This document shows, one piece after another, positions 20,888 through 31,470 of a DNA stretch of 64,000 nucleotides. A model generated the notes under the pieces. The model was not told the DNA's origin. It saw only the letters and a program-made list of their open reading frames with translations, and ran no database searches. Position 1 is the first letter of the stretch, and each line of letters begins with the position of its first letter. The translations under genes and the position numbers were made by a program. The stretch is from Candidatus Baltobacteraceae bacterium (GTDB lineage: Bacteria > Vulcanimicrobiota > Vulcanimicrobiia > Vulcanimicrobiales > Vulcanimicrobiaceae), in NCBI GenBank assembly GCA_036488875.1, contig DASXGW010000004.1:248001-312000 (forward strand), given 5' to 3'.

Positions 20888-21753
20888 TTGTCGCGCTGCT
20901 TGCGGCGCTCGCAACCGCAACGCCATCCGCTTCTCCGGCGCCGCAAGAAATCTTCGATCGAGCGTTTACGCGGTTGGCTTCGTACCCGGTTGCGCCGTAC
21001 GCCGTCGAGATCGCTACGCGTGACGAGAACTTCACGAGCCCAGTGCTCGGACGCGGCGGAAAAGCCGAATTCGCGGAGCGCTATACCTATAGGAGCGTAG
21101 ACGGCGTCGAAAACGTTACGGAGTATCCGGTTGGGAGCGATCGGCTTCCGCCCGCGCTGATCGCGCTCAATCAGCTAGGCGCGTTTGCATGGTCTCCACG
21201 GCGCGAAAATCTCATGGCCCCGCAGGGAGCCGGCGAGCCCGCTTTGCCCGACATTCCCAAGCCTCTCAAAACGATCGCTCACGTCGTCGCGTACGGGCCG
21301 CCGAGTTACGCGTTTGCAGCCGCCGGTTCGACGGGCTCGGCGGCAGCGGTTAGCATGGAAACCGTGGACGGGCACCTCTGCTACCATCTTCGTCTGCGCC
21401 CGCTGTCCGATCCGCAGCGCCATAATCTGCGCGACCTGTGGATCGATACCACGACGTTCGACTTATGGAAGGCCACCTTCGACGGCAGCTACCGCCCTGT
21501 GCCGCTCGCGCCTTCGAGCCCATCGACGTTTACCTCGATCTTCGCACCGATCGGGCAGTACTGGATCGTTTCGCGGCAGCACTGGACCTGGACCGACGCT
21601 GCCGATGAGGTCTTCGACGACATCAACATGGAGGTGAACAAGATCGTCTTTCCGTCGGCGCTCCCGGACTATCTGTTCGATCAAGCCGAGTACGAAAAGC
21701 AGCAGCGCGCGGACATTACCGACCCTCTCGACGCGATTCTCAACGGACAATGA
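20884..21753 (+). CDS. Secreted protein of unknown function
   Basis: 289 residues starting at GTG in a GTGA overlap. The N-terminus MIVALLAALATATPSASPAPQ is a short signal peptide, so export is likely. The body is mixed beta sequence with Trp/Tyr-rich strands (RDLWIDTTTFDLWKATFDGS and GQYWIVSRQHWTWTD), resembling LolA-like or DUF outer-membrane-lipoprotein-sorting folds, but I cannot assign a family. It is sandwiched between and coupled to a methyltransferase and a HyuA gene. Confidence 0.7.
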   Translation: MIVALLAALATATPSASPAPQEIFDRAFTRLASYPVAPYAVEIATRDENFTSPVLGRGGKAEFAERYTYRSVDGVENVTEYPVGSDRLPPALIALNQLGAFAWSPRRENLMAPQGAGEPALPDIPKPLKTIAHVVAYGPPSYAFAAAGSTGSAAAVSMETVDGHLCYHLRLRPLSDPQRHNLRDLWIDTTTFDLWKATFDGSYRPVPLAPSSPSTFTSIFAPIGQYWIVSRQHWTWTDAADEVFDDINMEVNKIVFPSALPDYLFDQAEYEKQQRADITDPLDAILNGQ

Positions 21754-23855
21754 ACGCGCAGCGCAAACTCCGGATTGGCATCGACGTTGGGGGAACGTTT
21801 ACCGATGTCATTGCCATCGACGTAGCGACGCGCGAACTCGTAGCATCGGTAAAGATACCGACGACGCACCGCGCCACCGAAGGCGTTGCCGCCGGTATCG
21901 TTGACGGTATCGGGCGGCTGCTGGATCGCGCGGGCGTGCATCCCGGCGACGTGGCGTTCATCGCGCACTCGACCACGCAAGCAACGAACGCACTGCTCGA
22001 GGGCGACGTCGCGCGCGTCGGCGTCGTGGGATTATTGGGGCCCTCAGGATGGCTCGCGCGTCGCCAGATTCGCTTCGCGCCGGTGGAGCTCGCGCCGGGA
22101 CGATCGCTCGCTCCCACGTTCGTGTTTGCCGCATCGCGCGATGAAGCGGCGATACGCTGCGCGGTCGACCGCGCCATCGGCGATGGCGCCGAGGCGATCG
22201 TCGCGAGCCAGCCGTTCGGCGTCGACCGGCCGGCGGCCGAGGCGAGCGTCGTCGACTACGCGCGGACGCGCGGCGTCGACGCGACCAGCGGTCACGACGT
22301 CAGCGCGACGTACGGGTTGCGCGCGCGCACGCGTACCGCCGCACTCAACGCCGCGATTCTACCGCGGATGATCCGCACTTCAAAAATGACCGCGGCGGCG
22401 GTGAAGAACGCCTCGATTCCCGCGCCGCTGATGATCATGCGCAGCGACGGCGGCGTGATGGACGTGCGCGAAATCGAGCGGCGCCCGATTCTCACCTTGC
22501 TCTCGGGACCTGCGGCAGGCGTTGCGGGCGCGCTGCTCTACGAGAATCTCACCGACGGCATTTTCATCGAGGTCGGCGGAACGAGCTCCGATATTTCCGC
22601 GATTCGTCAAGGCCGTCCGCAAATGCGGCCGGCGCGCATCGGTGGCCACCGAACGATGCTGCGCACGGTCGACGTGCGCACGCTCGGCGTTGCCGGCGGC
22701 AGCATGATTCGGATCGCGGACGGCACCGTCGTCGACGTCGGTCCGCGCAGCGCGCACATCGCCGGCTGTGCGTATGCGTGCTTCTGCGACGAGGCGCTGC
22801 TCGACGGCGCGCTCGTCGAAACCGTCGCGCCGTGGCCGGGCGATCCGCAAGACTATGCCATTCTCCGCGCACGCGACGGCACGGCAATCGCGCTAACGAC
22901 GAGCTGCGCGGCAAACGCGCTCGGCTGCATCCCCGAAGGTGCGTTTGCCAACGGAAACGCCGCCGGTGCGAAACGCGCGTTCGAGATTCTCGCGGCGCAT
23001 GCCGGTGCGCGCGGCGACGCGCTGGCGCGCACCGTCCTCGACGTCGCGGCGGCCAAACTGCGTGCGACGATCGACGAGCTGATTGCCGATTATGGCCTCG
23101 AGCGCGCGCACGTGACGATCGTCGGCGGCGGCGGTGGTGCCGGCGCGATCGTCCCCTACGCCGCCGAGGCGATGGGGCTTCGTCATCGGATCGCGCGCGA
23201 CGCCGAAGTGATCGCTCCAGTCGGCGTGGCGCTGGCACTCGTGCGCGACGTCGTCGAACGAACCATCGTCGCGCCCACGCCCGAGGATATCGCGCGCTTG
23301 CGCAGGGAAGCGATCGATCGCGTCGTCGCTGCCGGAGCGTCGCCCGATCGCGTAGAGGTGACGGTCGAAATCGATTCGCAGCGCAACCGCGTGCGCGCGG
23401 CGGCTTCGGGGGCGACCGCGCTCGCCGAGCCCGTGCTTACACAGCGATGCGACGAGGACGCACGTCGCGCCGCGGCGTCGCAGAGTCTCGACGGCGATGC
23501 GGCGGCCTTACAGCGCGTCGAACTCACGGCCGAGCTCACCGGCTACACGCTCGACGGCGCGCTGGCGATCGTCGACGATCGCGGTATCGTGCGGCTGGTG
23601 TTGCGGGGCGCACGCGTGCTCGTCGCGACGGCCGGCACGGTGGAAGCGAGCGCGTATCGAGCCATCGAGCGGAGCACGCGATTCGGTGACGTCGGTCGCG
23701 CGCTGCCGGCGCTCTATCTTCTGCGCGGCGAGCGGATCGCGACCTACGACGGATTGGCGAGCGCGCAACAAGCGGTAGCGCTCGCGCTTGAAGAGCTCGA
23801 GGGATGCCGGGAATCGGAGCCGGTAGCGCTGCTGACGCTGCCGCGTCAGGCGTAG
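21750..23855 (+). CDS. hyuA: Hydantoinase/oxoprolinase subunit A (HyuA family)
   Basis: 701 residues. The actin-like ATPase start IGIDVGGTFTDVIAID and the HyuA block FIAHSTTQATNALLEGD are clear. Downstream are HDVSATYGLRARTRTAALNAAI, the metal/ATP region SGPAAGVAGALLY, and a second phosphate loop at IVGGGGGAGAIVPYAAEAMG. Family members use ATP to open cyclic amides such as 5-oxoproline or hydantoins. The usual partner HyuB is not adjacent; the gene is last in its operon. It overlaps the upstream gene by 4 bp and ends 4 bp before a convergent gene. Confidence 0.88.
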   Translation: MNAQRKLRIGIDVGGTFTDVIAIDVATRELVASVKIPTTHRATEGVAAGIVDGIGRLLDRAGVHPGDVAFIAHSTTQATNALLEGDVARVGVVGLLGPSGWLARRQIRFAPVELAPGRSLAPTFVFAASRDEAAIRCAVDRAIGDGAEAIVASQPFGVDRPAAEASVVDYARTRGVDATSGHDVSATYGLRARTRTAALNAAILPRMIRTSKMTAAAVKNASIPAPLMIMRSDGGVMDVREIERRPILTLLSGPAAGVAGALLYENLTDGIFIEVGGTSSDISAIRQGRPQMRPARIGGHRTMLRTVDVRTLGVAGGSMIRIADGTVVDVGPRSAHIAGCAYACFCDEALLDGALVETVAPWPGDPQDYAILRARDGTAIALTTSCAANALGCIPEGAFANGNAAGAKRAFEILAAHAGARGDALARTVLDVAAAKLRATIDELIADYGLERAHVTIVGGGGGAGAIVPYAAEAMGLRHRIARDAEVIAPVGVALALVRDVVERTIVAPTPEDIARLRREAIDRVVAAGASPDRVEVTVEIDSQRNRVRAAASGATALAEPVLTQRCDEDARRAAASQSLDGDAAALQRVELTAELTGYTLDGALAIVDDRGIVRLVLRGARVLVATAGTVEASAYRAIERSTRFGDVGRALPALYLLRGERIATYDGLASAQQAVALALEELEGCRESEPVALLTLPRQA

Positions 23856-27063: not shown

Positions 27064-28422
27064 GTGGTGGAATTCGACGTGCTGGTCGTCGGCGGCGGTA
27101 ACGCCGGGTGCGCGGCCGCGCTCGCGGCGGCGCGCCACGGCGCGCGCACGCTTTTGGTCGAGCGTTATGGTTTCTTAGGTGGAACGGCGACAGCCGCGAT
27201 GGTCGGGCCATGGATGACGTTCCACTCGGGCGACCAACGCATCGTCGGCGGCATCGCACAGGAGATCGTGGAGCGCTTGGTGCGTAAAGGCGCGTCGCCC
27301 GGCCATCTGCACGATTCGTCCGATTACGTCGCTACCATTACGCCTTTCGATCCCGAGATTCACAAAGCGCTGCTCTTCGAGATGATGCGCGAGGCGGGCG
27401 TGAGCCTGATGTTACACGCCTACGTGCTCGACGCCAAGCTCGACGGCGATATCGTCCGTGGCGCGACGTTCGCGACGGTCGGGGGAACGCGCGAGTACTT
27501 CGGGCGCGTTGTCATCGACTCGACCGCCGACGCGTTCGTGGCGGCGTCGGCGGGGGTGCCGACGCAGCAGGGCGACGAGCGCGGCCGCGTTCAGCCGGCG
27601 ACTTTGATGTTCCGTCTGAGTCACGTCGATCTTTCGAAGCTGTCGACCTACGTTCGCATGCATCCGGATCAAATGCGCACTTCGCTCAAGACGCACGAGC
27701 GCACTCCGGGCGCGTTGACGGCCATCGCCGGGCTGTATCAGTTGTGGGAAGAAGCGCGCCGCGACGGCGTCGTGGACCTTCCGCGCGAGCTCGTCTCGTT
27801 CTTCATCTCGCCCTATCCGGACGAAGTCACGGTAAACATGACGCGCGTGGTCAACATCGATCCGCTCGATCCCGGCGACTTGACGCGCGCGGAGATCGAA
27901 GCGCGTCTCCAAACGATGCAGCTGCTCGAGTTCTTTCGGTCGCGCGTTCCGGGTTTCGAAAACGCGCGCATCGCCGCCACGGGCACGCAGGTCGGCATTC
28001 GCGAATCGCGGCGCATCGTCGGGCGTTACACGCTGACGCGCGACGACGTGCTGCAAGGCCGGCACTTCGACGACGCGGTGGCGTGCAGCGCGTATCCGAT
28101 CGACATTCACAACCCGGCAGGTACTGGAACGACGACGCAGCGCCTCGCTCCCGGCCAAAGCTACGACATTCCGTATCGCTGCCTGGTGCCCGTCAATCGC
28201 GAGCAGCTGCTCGTCGCCGGACGCTGCATCTCCACCACGCACGAAGCGCTGGCGTCGACGCGTTTGACGCCGACCGTCATGACGTTGGGACAAGCCGCCG
28301 GCACGGCCGCCGCACTCGCGCGTAAACGGCGCGTTCGCGTCGGCGACGTCGACACTAAAGAGTTGCGCGCGCAGCTCATCGCCGACGGCGTCTATCTTCA
28401 ACGCGAAGGAACGGCGCCGTGA
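27064..28422 (+). CDS. FAD-dependent oxidoreductase (FAD_oxidored family, PF12831-like)
   Basis: The GTG at 27064 follows GAAGG by six bases; the frame is open further upstream but that part lies over the divergent gene. The 452-residue protein begins with the dinucleotide fold VLVVGGGNAGCAAALAAARHGA, then ERYGFLGGTATAAMVGPWM. It ends with the FAD-contacting ISTTHEALASTRLTPTVMTLGQAAGTAAAL, typical of FAD_oxidored proteins often found with sugar-catabolic genes. Substrate unknown. It heads a four-gene coupled operon ending in NanE, suggesting a role in amino-sugar use. Confidence 0.85.
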   Translation: MVEFDVLVVGGGNAGCAAALAAARHGARTLLVERYGFLGGTATAAMVGPWMTFHSGDQRIVGGIAQEIVERLVRKGASPGHLHDSSDYVATITPFDPEIHKALLFEMMREAGVSLMLHAYVLDAKLDGDIVRGATFATVGGTREYFGRVVIDSTADAFVAASAGVPTQQGDERGRVQPATLMFRLSHVDLSKLSTYVRMHPDQMRTSLKTHERTPGALTAIAGLYQLWEEARRDGVVDLPRELVSFFISPYPDEVTVNMTRVVNIDPLDPGDLTRAEIEARLQTMQLLEFFRSRVPGFENARIAATGTQVGIRESRRIVGRYTLTRDDVLQGRHFDDAVACSAYPIDIHNPAGTGTTTQRLAPGQSYDIPYRCLVPVNREQLLVAGRCISTTHEALASTRLTPTVMTLGQAAGTAAALARKRRVRVGDVDTKELRAQLIADGVYLQREGTAP

Positions 28423-28718
28423 ATAAGGCGATCGCGCTAGCGCGCACGTACGGCGTTTCCATGTGTTTTGCCGATTTAGGCGACTGGGGTCTCGACGAGC
28501 TGCGCTCGGAGTACGATCCCGGTGTTCCCGAGATCCGGCTCAACGTTCGCATCGCCGAGCAGCTGACGCCGCAAGAGCTGGGCGAGTTCGTGACCTTGGC
28601 GATCGGTCACGAGCTCTACCATCACCGCGAGCGTATCGGCGAAATCGTCGTCATCCCGGACCGCATCGCACGCGAGCACGCCGCCAACGACTACGCGCGA
28701 AAGTTTTTAGAGCCGTGA
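28419..28718 (+). CDS. Miniature ImmA/IrrE-like zinc metallopeptidase
   Basis: Only 99 residues, starting in a GTGA overlap. The core motif AIGHELYHH gives the HExxH zinc site (His64-Glu65-His68), and the following REHAANDYARKFL matches the E..AN.FA helix that supplies the third ligand in ImmA/IrrE peptidases. It appears to consist of the bare catalytic helices with no DNA-binding or sensor domain. IrrE/ImmA proteins usually cleave repressors; here it lies inside a sugar operon, so it may process a regulator or one of the neighbouring enzymes. Confidence 0.75.
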   Translation: MNKAIALARTYGVSMCFADLGDWGLDELRSEYDPGVPEIRLNVRIAEQLTPQELGEFVTLAIGHELYHHRERIGEIVVIPDRIAREHAANDYARKFLEP

Positions 28719-29602
28719 AATACGTTGCGGGCATCGACGGCGGACAAACGACGACGGCCGCAGCCGTCGGCGACGAGCGCGGACGCATTCTCGGTCGCGG
28801 CATCGCCGGTCCCGCCGATGAAGTGGGTCAAGATGCCGGGTCGACGCGCATGCGCGACGCGTTATCGAATGCCCTGCGCGCGGCGTGCAAAGACGCGGGC
28901 CTGGACGCCGATACGCACTTCGAGGCGATCGTTGCCGGCGTCAGCGGCTACGAAGGACGCGTGTACGGAAAAGTTCCGCAGCTTCGGGGAACGCGTTTCG
29001 TCCTGATGCACGACGCGCCGATCGCGCACGCCGGCGCGCTCGCCGGACGTCCGGGCATCGTCGTGATCGCCGGCACCGGTTCGGTCGTCTACGCAACCGA
29101 CGGCAAGCAGGGCTGGACGCTCGGCGGTTGGGGATATCTTTTCGGCGATGAGGGCAGCGCGTTCTGGTTCGCATCTAACGCGATTCGCGCAGCGATGTAT
29201 GGAGAGGATCATGGCGTCGATCCCAACCACGCGCGCGACAAGATCTGCACGTACTTCGGCGTTCCGTCGCTGCGCGCGCTGGCGCGTGCGTTTTATGCCG
29301 GCGAAATCTCGCGCGCTCGCATCGCGTCGTTTGCATCGGAACCCGATAAAGCCGACGTGCTGGGAGGGGCGAACGCCCTTGCGATGCTCGTCCGCGAATC
29401 GGTCGTTCGCGGCGCGCCTGCCCGCGTCGCCCTGGTCGGCGGAATGTTTTCCAGCGCGGAGTTTACGCAAGAGGTTCGAGCCCACGTGAAGCGATGGCTC
29501 CCCGCCGCCCAAATCGTGGACCCCAAGTACGATCCGGCTGCCGGGGCGCTGCTCTTGGCCTACCGAGAAGCCGGCATTTCCGGCATCGAGATCGCTTCGT
29601 GA
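28715..29602 (+). CDS. BadF/BadG/BcrA-type ATPase, N-acetylhexosamine kinase-like
   Basis: 295 residues from GTG 28715, overlapping the upstream stop by 4 bp. Sugar-kinase/actin-fold motifs are clear: phosphate-1 YVAGIDGGQTTTAAAVGDE, IVVIAGTGSVVYA with GGWGYLFGDEGSAFWFA (phosphate-2/connect region), and the adenosine motif VALVGGMFSSAEF. This matches eukaryotic NAGK-like GlcNAc kinases within the BadF family. With NanE directly downstream, phosphorylation of ManNAc or GlcNAc is the best guess. Confidence 0.87.
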   Translation: MKYVAGIDGGQTTTAAAVGDERGRILGRGIAGPADEVGQDAGSTRMRDALSNALRAACKDAGLDADTHFEAIVAGVSGYEGRVYGKVPQLRGTRFVLMHDAPIAHAGALAGRPGIVVIAGTGSVVYATDGKQGWTLGGWGYLFGDEGSAFWFASNAIRAAMYGEDHGVDPNHARDKICTYFGVPSLRALARAFYAGEISRARIASFASEPDKADVLGGANALAMLVRESVVRGAPARVALVGGMFSSAEFTQEVRAHVKRWLPAAQIVDPKYDPAAGALLLAYREAGISGIEIAS

Positions 29603-30306
29603 GCGAGCTGAGTCTGCTCGACGAGCTGCGGGGCGGATTGATCGTCTCGGTTCAGGCGTGGCCTGGCTCGGCGCTCGACGACCCGCACGTCATCGCCGCG
29701 ATGGCGCGCGCAGCTCAAGAAGGTGACGCCGTCGGCGTGCGCGTGCAAGGCGTAGCAAATCTCCGCGCGGTGCGAGGGCGGGTTCAAGTTCCGATCGTCG
29801 GATTGATCAAACGCGAGTATCCCGGCTACGAGCCGTACATTACGCCGACGCTGGAAGAAGTGACCGCGATCGCCGGTGCGGGCGCCGACCTCATCGCGTT
29901 CGACGCGACCGGCCGGAAGCGACCGGGCGATGCGCGGCTCGAAACGCTCGTCGCGGCGATTCACGCGGCCGGGCGACTCGCAGTAGCCGACTGCGCCACC
30001 CTAGAGGAAGGAAGGACCGCCGCGCGGCTGGGCGCCGACGTGGTAGCCACAACCCTCTGCGGCTACACTTCCGAGACGGCCGGAACCCCGTTACCGGCGC
30101 TGGAGTTGGTCGCCGCCCTTCGACAAGCTCTGGGCGACACCGGGTTCGTGGTCTGCGAAGGCGGCGTGCACTCGCCGGATCAGGTACGGGCTGCGCTCGA
30201 CGCCGGTGCCGATGCAGTCGTAGTCGGAACCGCCATTACTAACGTAGACTGGCTAGTAAGAGAGTTTGCAGGGTCTACCGATACGGCGCGAAACCGCTAC
30301 CGTTAG
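29599..30306 (+). CDS. nanE: N-acetylmannosamine-6-phosphate 2-epimerase
   Basis: 235 residues from GTG 29599 (GTGA overlap). The (beta/alpha)8 NanE family is recognised by GGLIVSVQAWPGSALDDP, RVQVPIVGLIKREYPGYEPYITPT, ADLIAFDATGRKRP, GADVVATTLCGYT and the C-terminal phosphate-binding AVVVGTAITN. It converts ManNAc-6-P to GlcNAc-6-P in the cytoplasm during sialic acid and amino-sugar breakdown. No sialidase or NanA is present in the window. Confidence 0.94.
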   Translation: MSELSLLDELRGGLIVSVQAWPGSALDDPHVIAAMARAAQEGDAVGVRVQGVANLRAVRGRVQVPIVGLIKREYPGYEPYITPTLEEVTAIAGAGADLIAFDATGRKRPGDARLETLVAAIHAAGRLAVADCATLEEGRTAARLGADVVATTLCGYTSETAGTPLPALELVAALRQALGDTGFVVCEGGVHSPDQVRAALDAGADAVVVGTAITNVDWLVREFAGSTDTARNRYR

Positions 30307-30333: not shown

Positions 30334-31470
30334 TTGGTTGAGCACAAATCGCCACCGATAAGTCTCGGGCGTAGCTTTTGGCTTGTCACGGCCGTCCTGG
30401 GCGTCGCGGCAATCGCGTCGATCATCTACTGGATTTACGCGCCGATCGAGAGCTGGGTTCCTTCGATCATCGTCACCGCGTACCAAGTCGACGTCTTCTT
30501 TCGGTTCTTGGCTGCCACGGGAAGCGCGCTGTACATCTTCGTCTGCGGCTACATCCTCTACTTTGCAATCGAGTTCCGTGCGCGGAAGGACGATCCGCCC
30601 GACGCCATCGGCGTGCAGATTCACGACAACCATAAGCTCGAGTTCTGGTGGACGGTTGGCCCCACTGTGTTTGTGGCCATCATTGCGATCGTCAGCTGGA
30701 TCATTTGGGCGCAGATCATCTTGCCAAGCAACAACGCGGGAGGCGCCCTCGTCATAGAGGCAATCGGGCATCAATTCGAGTTCACGTTCCGCTATCCCGA
30801 GATCAACGGCGAAGTCACCAGCGAGATGCATCTGCCGATCAACGTGCCGGTGACGCTGAACCTCACCTCGTCCGACGTTATTCACTCGTTCTGGATACCG
30901 GCGATGCGCCTCAAGCAGGACACCATTCCCGGAATGGTGACGGAAATCAAATTAACGCCGAATACGCTCGGCCGCTTCCCCATCGTTTGCGCGCAGTTCT
31001 GCGGGCCGCTCCACGCCAGGATGAACGCGCTCGTTTCCCAGCCGGGACCGGGTTCGGGTCAAGGACAGTGGGTCGTCGTCGAAGACATGGCGTCGTACCA
31101 AAAGTGGTATCACGATTGGCAAGAGAAGAACGCGCACGTGAGCAACGCGCTGCCGTCGACCAGCGGCACGATTGCGTTGACGGGCGGCGACGCCGCCGCG
31201 GGCAAGGCCTTGTTCTCGCAGAAATGCACGGCGTGTCACGCGCTCGCGCCGTTCGATCAGAAGCTCGTCGGACCGGGCCTCAAGGGCGTGCTGCACGATC
31301 CGTCGCATCCCAATCTCGTCAACGGCGATCCGGCGACACCGGACAACGTTGCGAAGATTTTGCAGCAAGGGTTTACGGGCAGCATGGGAACGATGCCCAA
31401 CGCTACCACCAACGGGCTCTCAGACAAAGATATCGCCAATCTCGTCGCATTCTTGGATTCATTGAAGTAA
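30334..31470 (+). CDS. coxB: Cytochrome c oxidase subunit II fused to cytochrome c
   Basis: 378 residues from TTG 30334, with GAGGAG about ten bases upstream. Two N-terminal transmembrane helices are followed by the CuA cupredoxin domain, where CAQFCGPLHARM gives Cys219, Cys223, His227 and Met230. After a linker, a cytochrome c domain carries the heme motif CTACH (298-302) and a probable axial Met in MGTMPNA. This is a caa3-type CoxB. Located in the membrane with its domains on the outer face, it accepts electrons for CoxA, encoded 21 bp downstream. Confidence 0.96.
   Translation: MVEHKSPPISLGRSFWLVTAVLGVAAIASIIYWIYAPIESWVPSIIVTAYQVDVFFRFLAATGSALYIFVCGYILYFAIEFRARKDDPPDAIGVQIHDNHKLEFWWTVGPTVFVAIIAIVSWIIWAQIILPSNNAGGALVIEAIGHQFEFTFRYPEINGEVTSEMHLPINVPVTLNLTSSDVIHSFWIPAMRLKQDTIPGMVTEIKLTPNTLGRFPIVCAQFCGPLHARMNALVSQPGPGSGQGQWVVVEDMASYQKWYHDWQEKNAHVSNALPSTSGTIALTGGDAAAGKALFSQKCTACHALAPFDQKLVGPGLKGVLHDPSHPNLVNGDPATPDNVAKILQQGFTGSMGTMPNATTNGLSDKDIANLVAFLDSLK

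Follow-up and report, generated by a model that had tools for sequence, protein, structure and literature searches.

What does a 99-aa protein with an HExxH motif do when its gene lies between those of a flavin-dependent oxidoreductase and a sugar kinase? The characterized M78 (ImmA/IrrE-type) proteins that we encountered target repressors that govern stress genes, mobile elements or defense systems (PMC10904395, PMC7907104). In the window, as we call the whole 64,000-nucleotide stretch of DNA that was analyzed, a putative member of this family is instead surrounded by metabolic genes. The genome belongs with Candidatus Eremiobacterota; among named genomes, MAGs of this group are closest to it. 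A description of the cassette was not found in the titles and abstracts of the open-access literature searched.

Layout and conservation of the cassette

The cassette consists of four overlapping genes on the + strand, encoding an FAD oxidoreductase, the 99-aa protein, a BadF-type kinase and NanE, and all frames are open (Table 1). An earlier note had claimed 4-bp overlaps throughout, and these were borne out at all three junctions, each a GTGA formed by a GTG start and a TGA stop: FAD/small protein (start 28419, stop 28420-28422), small protein/kinase (start 28715, stop 28716-28718) and kinase/NanE (start 29599, stop 29600-29602). Its numbering of His64 and Glu65 within the HELYH motif was likewise correct. 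Translational coupling with the three enzymes would produce the small protein from a vertically inherited cassette. Upstream, at window positions 21750-23855, lies a hydantoinase A-family gene, and many relatives likewise have one ahead of the cassette; a hydantoinase B partner was not recognized among the neighboring frames read.

Table 1. Features of the cassette and of the oxidase genes that follow it (positions in the window)
Feature	Position	Strand	Evidence
FAD-dependent oxidoreductase, 452 aa, first cassette gene	27064..28422	+	PF12831 427.4 bits, cut-off 27; model pLDDT 91.8
99-aa minimal M78 (ImmA/IrrE-type) zinc-peptidase domain protein, predicted	28419..28718	+	GTG start within the stop of the FAD gene
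HELYH, residues 64-68, predicted metal-binding/catalytic motif	28608..28622	+	HExxH in 98/98 readable copies
Glu86, predicted third metal ligand, within RExAAN.YA	28674..28676	+	invariant in 32-member alignment
BadF/NAGK-type sugar kinase, 295 aa	28715..29602	+	PF01869 108.2 bits, cut-off 31.5
NanE, putative N-acetylmannosamine-6-phosphate 2-epimerase, 235 aa	29599..30306	+	NF002231 269.7 bits, cut-off 189
Cytochrome c oxidase subunit II, C-terminal cytochrome c domain, first oxidase gene	30334..31470	+	COX2 and cytochrome c domains
Cytochrome c oxidase subunit I, 559 aa	31492..33171	+	open frame; named by reading the sequence
Cytochrome c oxidase subunit III-like, 204 aa	33171..33785	+	open frame, conserved position; named by reading the sequence

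Conservation was surveyed in 149 genomes of the phylum, comprising 99 of the window's family, 4 of a sister family and 46 others. The small protein was present in 94 of the 99 window-family genomes and in all 4 sister-family genomes, and NanE was present in 97 and 4 of these, respectively, and in none of the 46 others. Gene order was scored at 135 loci, made up of 105 per-genome rows (3 of them rejected) and 30 named-contig loci, part of which come from genomes already represented. The order FAD, small protein, kinase, NanE was found at 119 of the 135. Ten of the remaining 16 loci were cut by contig or fetch ends, three were without the small protein and three were the rejected rows. This count scored order alone and allowed intervening genes, as in G012, where three apparently unrelated genes (gap 2877 bp) separate the FAD gene from the small gene. 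The exact 4-bp overlap was found between the FAD and small genes in 58 of 95 measured rows and between the small and kinase genes in 70 of 98, these denominators including some overlap values (19 to 1840 bp) that stem from an ambiguous choice of start. The earlier note had regarded an unconserved neighborhood as grounds for giving up its reading, and the neighborhood proved to be conserved. The small protein and the cassette enzymes are held together by overlapping genes across the whole bacterial family.

G022 and G015 have no small protein, no NanE and no orthologous FAD gene, although the absence from G015 cannot be called a loss, as coxA there starts at base 41 of its contig. The contig that carries NanE in G127 begins inside the kinase gene. 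In eight cassette-less genomes, seven from family f3 plus G022, coxA was located and nothing near it matched a cassette gene. Rejected hits aside, the small protein was not found outside the cassette in the phylum survey, and it was cassette-linked in 98 genomes. The rejected hits were a weak match in G049 (HDxxH, an internal stop and no cassette), a weak match in G141 (no cassette) and a second match in G084 that falls inside a 500-aa frame. A search of plasmids and viral contigs found no homologue of the small protein.

A predicted minimal M78 domain

From the 98 genomes, 99 true copies of the small protein were extracted, one of which is truncated at a contig end, leaving 98 readable. The HExxH motif, including the catalytic Glu65, is kept in every readable copy, and the proteins diverge to about 30% identity. 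A Glu within a recognizable motif follows HExxH in 97 of the 98 copies, at a spacing of 12 to 17 in 89 and with a shorter loop and E..AH in 8; the copy in G017 alone fits neither pattern. By eye, about ten copies, G017 and G021 included, form a divergent subtype (loci L101, L102, L103, L104, L105, L106, L155, L028, L031 and L108), mostly with the shortened loop and E..AH instead of E..AAN. Within one genus, median dN/dS of the small frame was 0.042 (36 pairs from 9 loci), and the two alternative frames of this DNA gave 2.6 (36 pairs) and 8.2 (30 computable pairs). In this genus, the small reading frame evolves under strong purifying selection. A spurious overlapping frame with a chance HExxH is excluded by dN/dS and conservation, and an assembly or annotation artefact by the independent genomes.

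Family membership was assessed by profile, fold and alignment. Neither Pfam nor NCBIfam gave a match at E<=1 for the window copy, and PF06114 was matched at this threshold by 16 of 32 aligned relatives (best 4.1e-8). The 32-member alignment has twelve invariant columns, including H64, E65, H68 and E86, the last of which is presumably the third metal ligand. Other zincin families (SprT, DUF5700, M91 and BSP) were each matched weakly by one of the 32 members and were set aside, as was the single chance match (E 0.096) from a sequence search of solved structures with the small family. The AlphaFold2 model has a mean pLDDT of 94. Its best solved-structure match is the peptidase domain of PprI/IrrE (8sln; Z 8.7, rmsd 2.6, 86 residues), where PprI region 42-137 is matched and all residues of the 99-aa protein are used. 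A transcriptional regulator of Mtb (3dti) followed at Z 8.1 and CapP at Z 6.5, with values below 8 open to being background by the tool's own warning. Foldseek returned most of the same names with weak E-values from 0.0036 upward, and the fold match is clear by ranking and not by E-value for this reason.

The genome encodes a second, bona fide M78 protein, and a profile comparison aligned the small protein with it over HE..H and E..AN.FA..LL (E 5.4e-6). In this alignment, REHAANDYARKFL of the small protein is paired with REVQANRFAAELL of the other protein, in the Glu-bearing helix after HEXXH. Such a helix downstream of HEXXH, with (A)AN.FA..L, is a hallmark of M78 (PF06114). The 99-aa protein is, as modeled, an M78 peptidase domain and nothing more. 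The relatives' PF06114 matches, the predicted fold and the profile alignment agree with the earlier proposal of an IrrE-type catalytic core. That proposal was to be given up if the protein lacked the fold, and the model takes the PprI/IrrE peptidase fold with the metal-site residues intact.

Comparison with known systems shows where the small protein departs from them. IrrE/PprI of Deinococcus, which cleaves the repressor DdrO, shares the zinc-peptidase domain fold and HExxH, but it has added HTH and GAF-like domains, making three in all (PMC10904395), whereas here the catalytic domain stands alone and with no recognized repressor partner. The earlier generalization that such proteases normally carry extra domains holds for PprI; it does not hold for the genome's other M78 protein, which at 167 aa has no other Pfam match, and short viral look-alikes also exist (predicted proteins of 83-122 aa with a similar fold). 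ImmA/ImmR and CapP/CapH have the M78 fold, as scored above for CapP, but adjoin an HTH repressor gene, whereas the neighbors here are enzymes. Minimal archaeal metallopeptidases of the selecase/jannalysin type are similar in size (about 100-110 aa) and in their zincin core, and they score lower in structural comparison (Z 5.3-5.7) than the M78 proteins.

Probable amino-sugar enzymes and the oxidase operon

The kinase missed the NagK equivalog cut-off (NF046058, 93.8 bits vs 370), and only the broad PF01869 matched above its cut-off. Its solved relatives are an archaeal hexokinase, an N-acetylmuramate/N-acetylglucosamine (MurNAc/GlcNAc) kinase and NAGK. Elsewhere in the genome, a wall-recycling cluster (L197; G000:C1:136000-150000) holds an AnmK gene, a MurQ gene over its cut-off, a beta-lactamase-family gene and, by eye, a NagZ-like gene. 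A NagA-like gene is also present (TIGR00221, 212.7 bits vs a cut-off of 225.65). TIGR00221 was matched in 30 of 31 genomes, in 5 of them over cut-off, and the NagB equivalog was over cut-off in none of the 31. A kinase that acts on free N-acetyl hexosamines would be in keeping with the AnmK, MurQ and NagA-like genes. The cassette enzymes are likely to convert ManNAc-6-P and GlcNAc-6-P into each other and to add a phosphate to a free N-acetyl hexosamine, next to AnmK/MurQ wall recycling. MurQ and NagA-like genes also occur in the genomes of family f3, which have no cassette, and therefore wall recycling as such does not depend on the cassette.

Catabolic operons for sialic acid and ManNAc carry NanA-NanK-NanE and NagA-NagB. 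The cassette resembles them in having NanE and a sugar kinase within one operon, but the kinase is of the BadF type, NanA is not among the operon genes, and an FAD enzyme and an M78 protein are added. The FAD enzyme had been suggested to belong to an oxidative amino-sugar route. This idea was not upheld: the protein matches only the broad family PF12831 and generic flavoprotein folds (TM < 0.5 normalized to the query), and no NanE or BadF kinase was named in three plasmid neighborhoods read around its 36-41% homologues. It was the slowest-evolving of five proteins compared, with a mean distance of 0.286 vs 0.747 for oxidase subunit II over 45 rows. Across the operon partners and subunit II the range was 0.60-0.90, and the low value is odd for a peripheral catabolic enzyme.

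Behind NanE lies a cytochrome c oxidase operon that the earlier note did not mention. In the window, the subunit II gene starts 27 bp after NanE, and a simple scan found no terminator-like site on the + strand between the two. In all 85 loci that showed both genes, subunit II lay downstream of NanE on the same strand, separated from it by a median of 67 bp and at most 988 bp. Relatives of subunit I at 63-70% were found in genomes both with and without the cassette. A second oxidase subunit I gene, 47% identical, lies outside the window at G000:C4:242272-243792.

Proposed role and alternative explanations

A probable natural loss bears on the role of the small protein. In genus g6 (G006 and G097), the small gene is gone, the FAD gene runs directly into the kinase gene and NanE is retained; the FAD/kinase junction of G006 has the same 4-bp overlap. 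In a tree of the FAD protein, G006 stands beside 11 genomes that bear the small gene; the sister family, which has the gene as well, falls outside. Support is weak at several inner nodes (0.0 at one), so the tree favors loss in g6 without proving it. Since g6 does without the small gene yet has the FAD, kinase and NanE genes, the small protein is more likely an accessory part than a pathway step.

The conserved metal and catalytic residues suggest an active peptidase. The small protein would be a complete but minimal M78 zinc-metallopeptidase domain, and we rate at about even the reading that it is an active peptidase adjusting one cassette-linked protein by limited proteolysis. As an accessory regulator, it would tune the amount or activity of that protein, which may be one of the cassette enzymes or a repressor encoded elsewhere. 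If true, a stable, family-wide pairing of metabolic enzymes and a terminal oxidase with a stand-alone M78 core would move M78 into housekeeping regulation. New here are the oxidase adjacency, the apparently clean loss of the small gene in one genus and the lack of a recognized HTH partner, unlike the genome's other M78 protein. It is quite unlikely, in our estimate, that the small protein is a dedicated post-translational metabolic switch that couples amino-sugar salvage to the expression or activity of the adjacent cytochrome c oxidase and replaces the repressor-cleaving stress role.

Tentatively, the protein may instead be a non-catalytic adaptor, in which the metal site stabilizes the fold only and a partner, such as the kinase or the FAD enzyme, is bound and controlled uncut. 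The overlapping genes suggest production matched to that of the enzymes, and there is a precedent for an M78-like HExxH protein that acts without cutting, as Rir blocks the repressor Crh despite its HEXXH (PMC7907104). Against an adaptor, all 98 readable copies keep the catalytic Glu65 beyond the His ligands, and distance correlations over the 45 rows with all five proteins, which are dominated by shared descent, single out no partner for the small protein.

A classic antirepressor that cleaves an HTH repressor encoded elsewhere, and so controls the cassette and possibly the oxidase genes behind it, is unlikely. IrrE/PprI and CapP are known to act in this way (PMC10904395), and an XRE gene shares one base with the genome's other M78 gene. 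No HTH or DNA-binding gene was recognized in the conserved neighborhood or among the scanned window genes, however, and the 99-aa protein is without the regulatory domains of PprI. Recruitment of the zincin core to a non-peptidase hydrolysis, such as amide cleavage or deacetylation within the sugar pathway, is very improbable: the small protein, its HExxH and Glu preserved, does have sugar enzymes on either side, but a NagA-like deacetylase gene is present elsewhere, one genus does without the small protein, and we know of no M78 protein with amidase/deacetylase-type activity.

The genome's other M78 gene and its XRE partner, at L199 (G000:C12:306000-314000) outside the window, have as neighbors a ThiF-family frame and, by eye, JAB-like and ubiquitin-like ones, and this locus looks like a ubiquitin-like conjugation or defense operon with its own repressor/protease pair.
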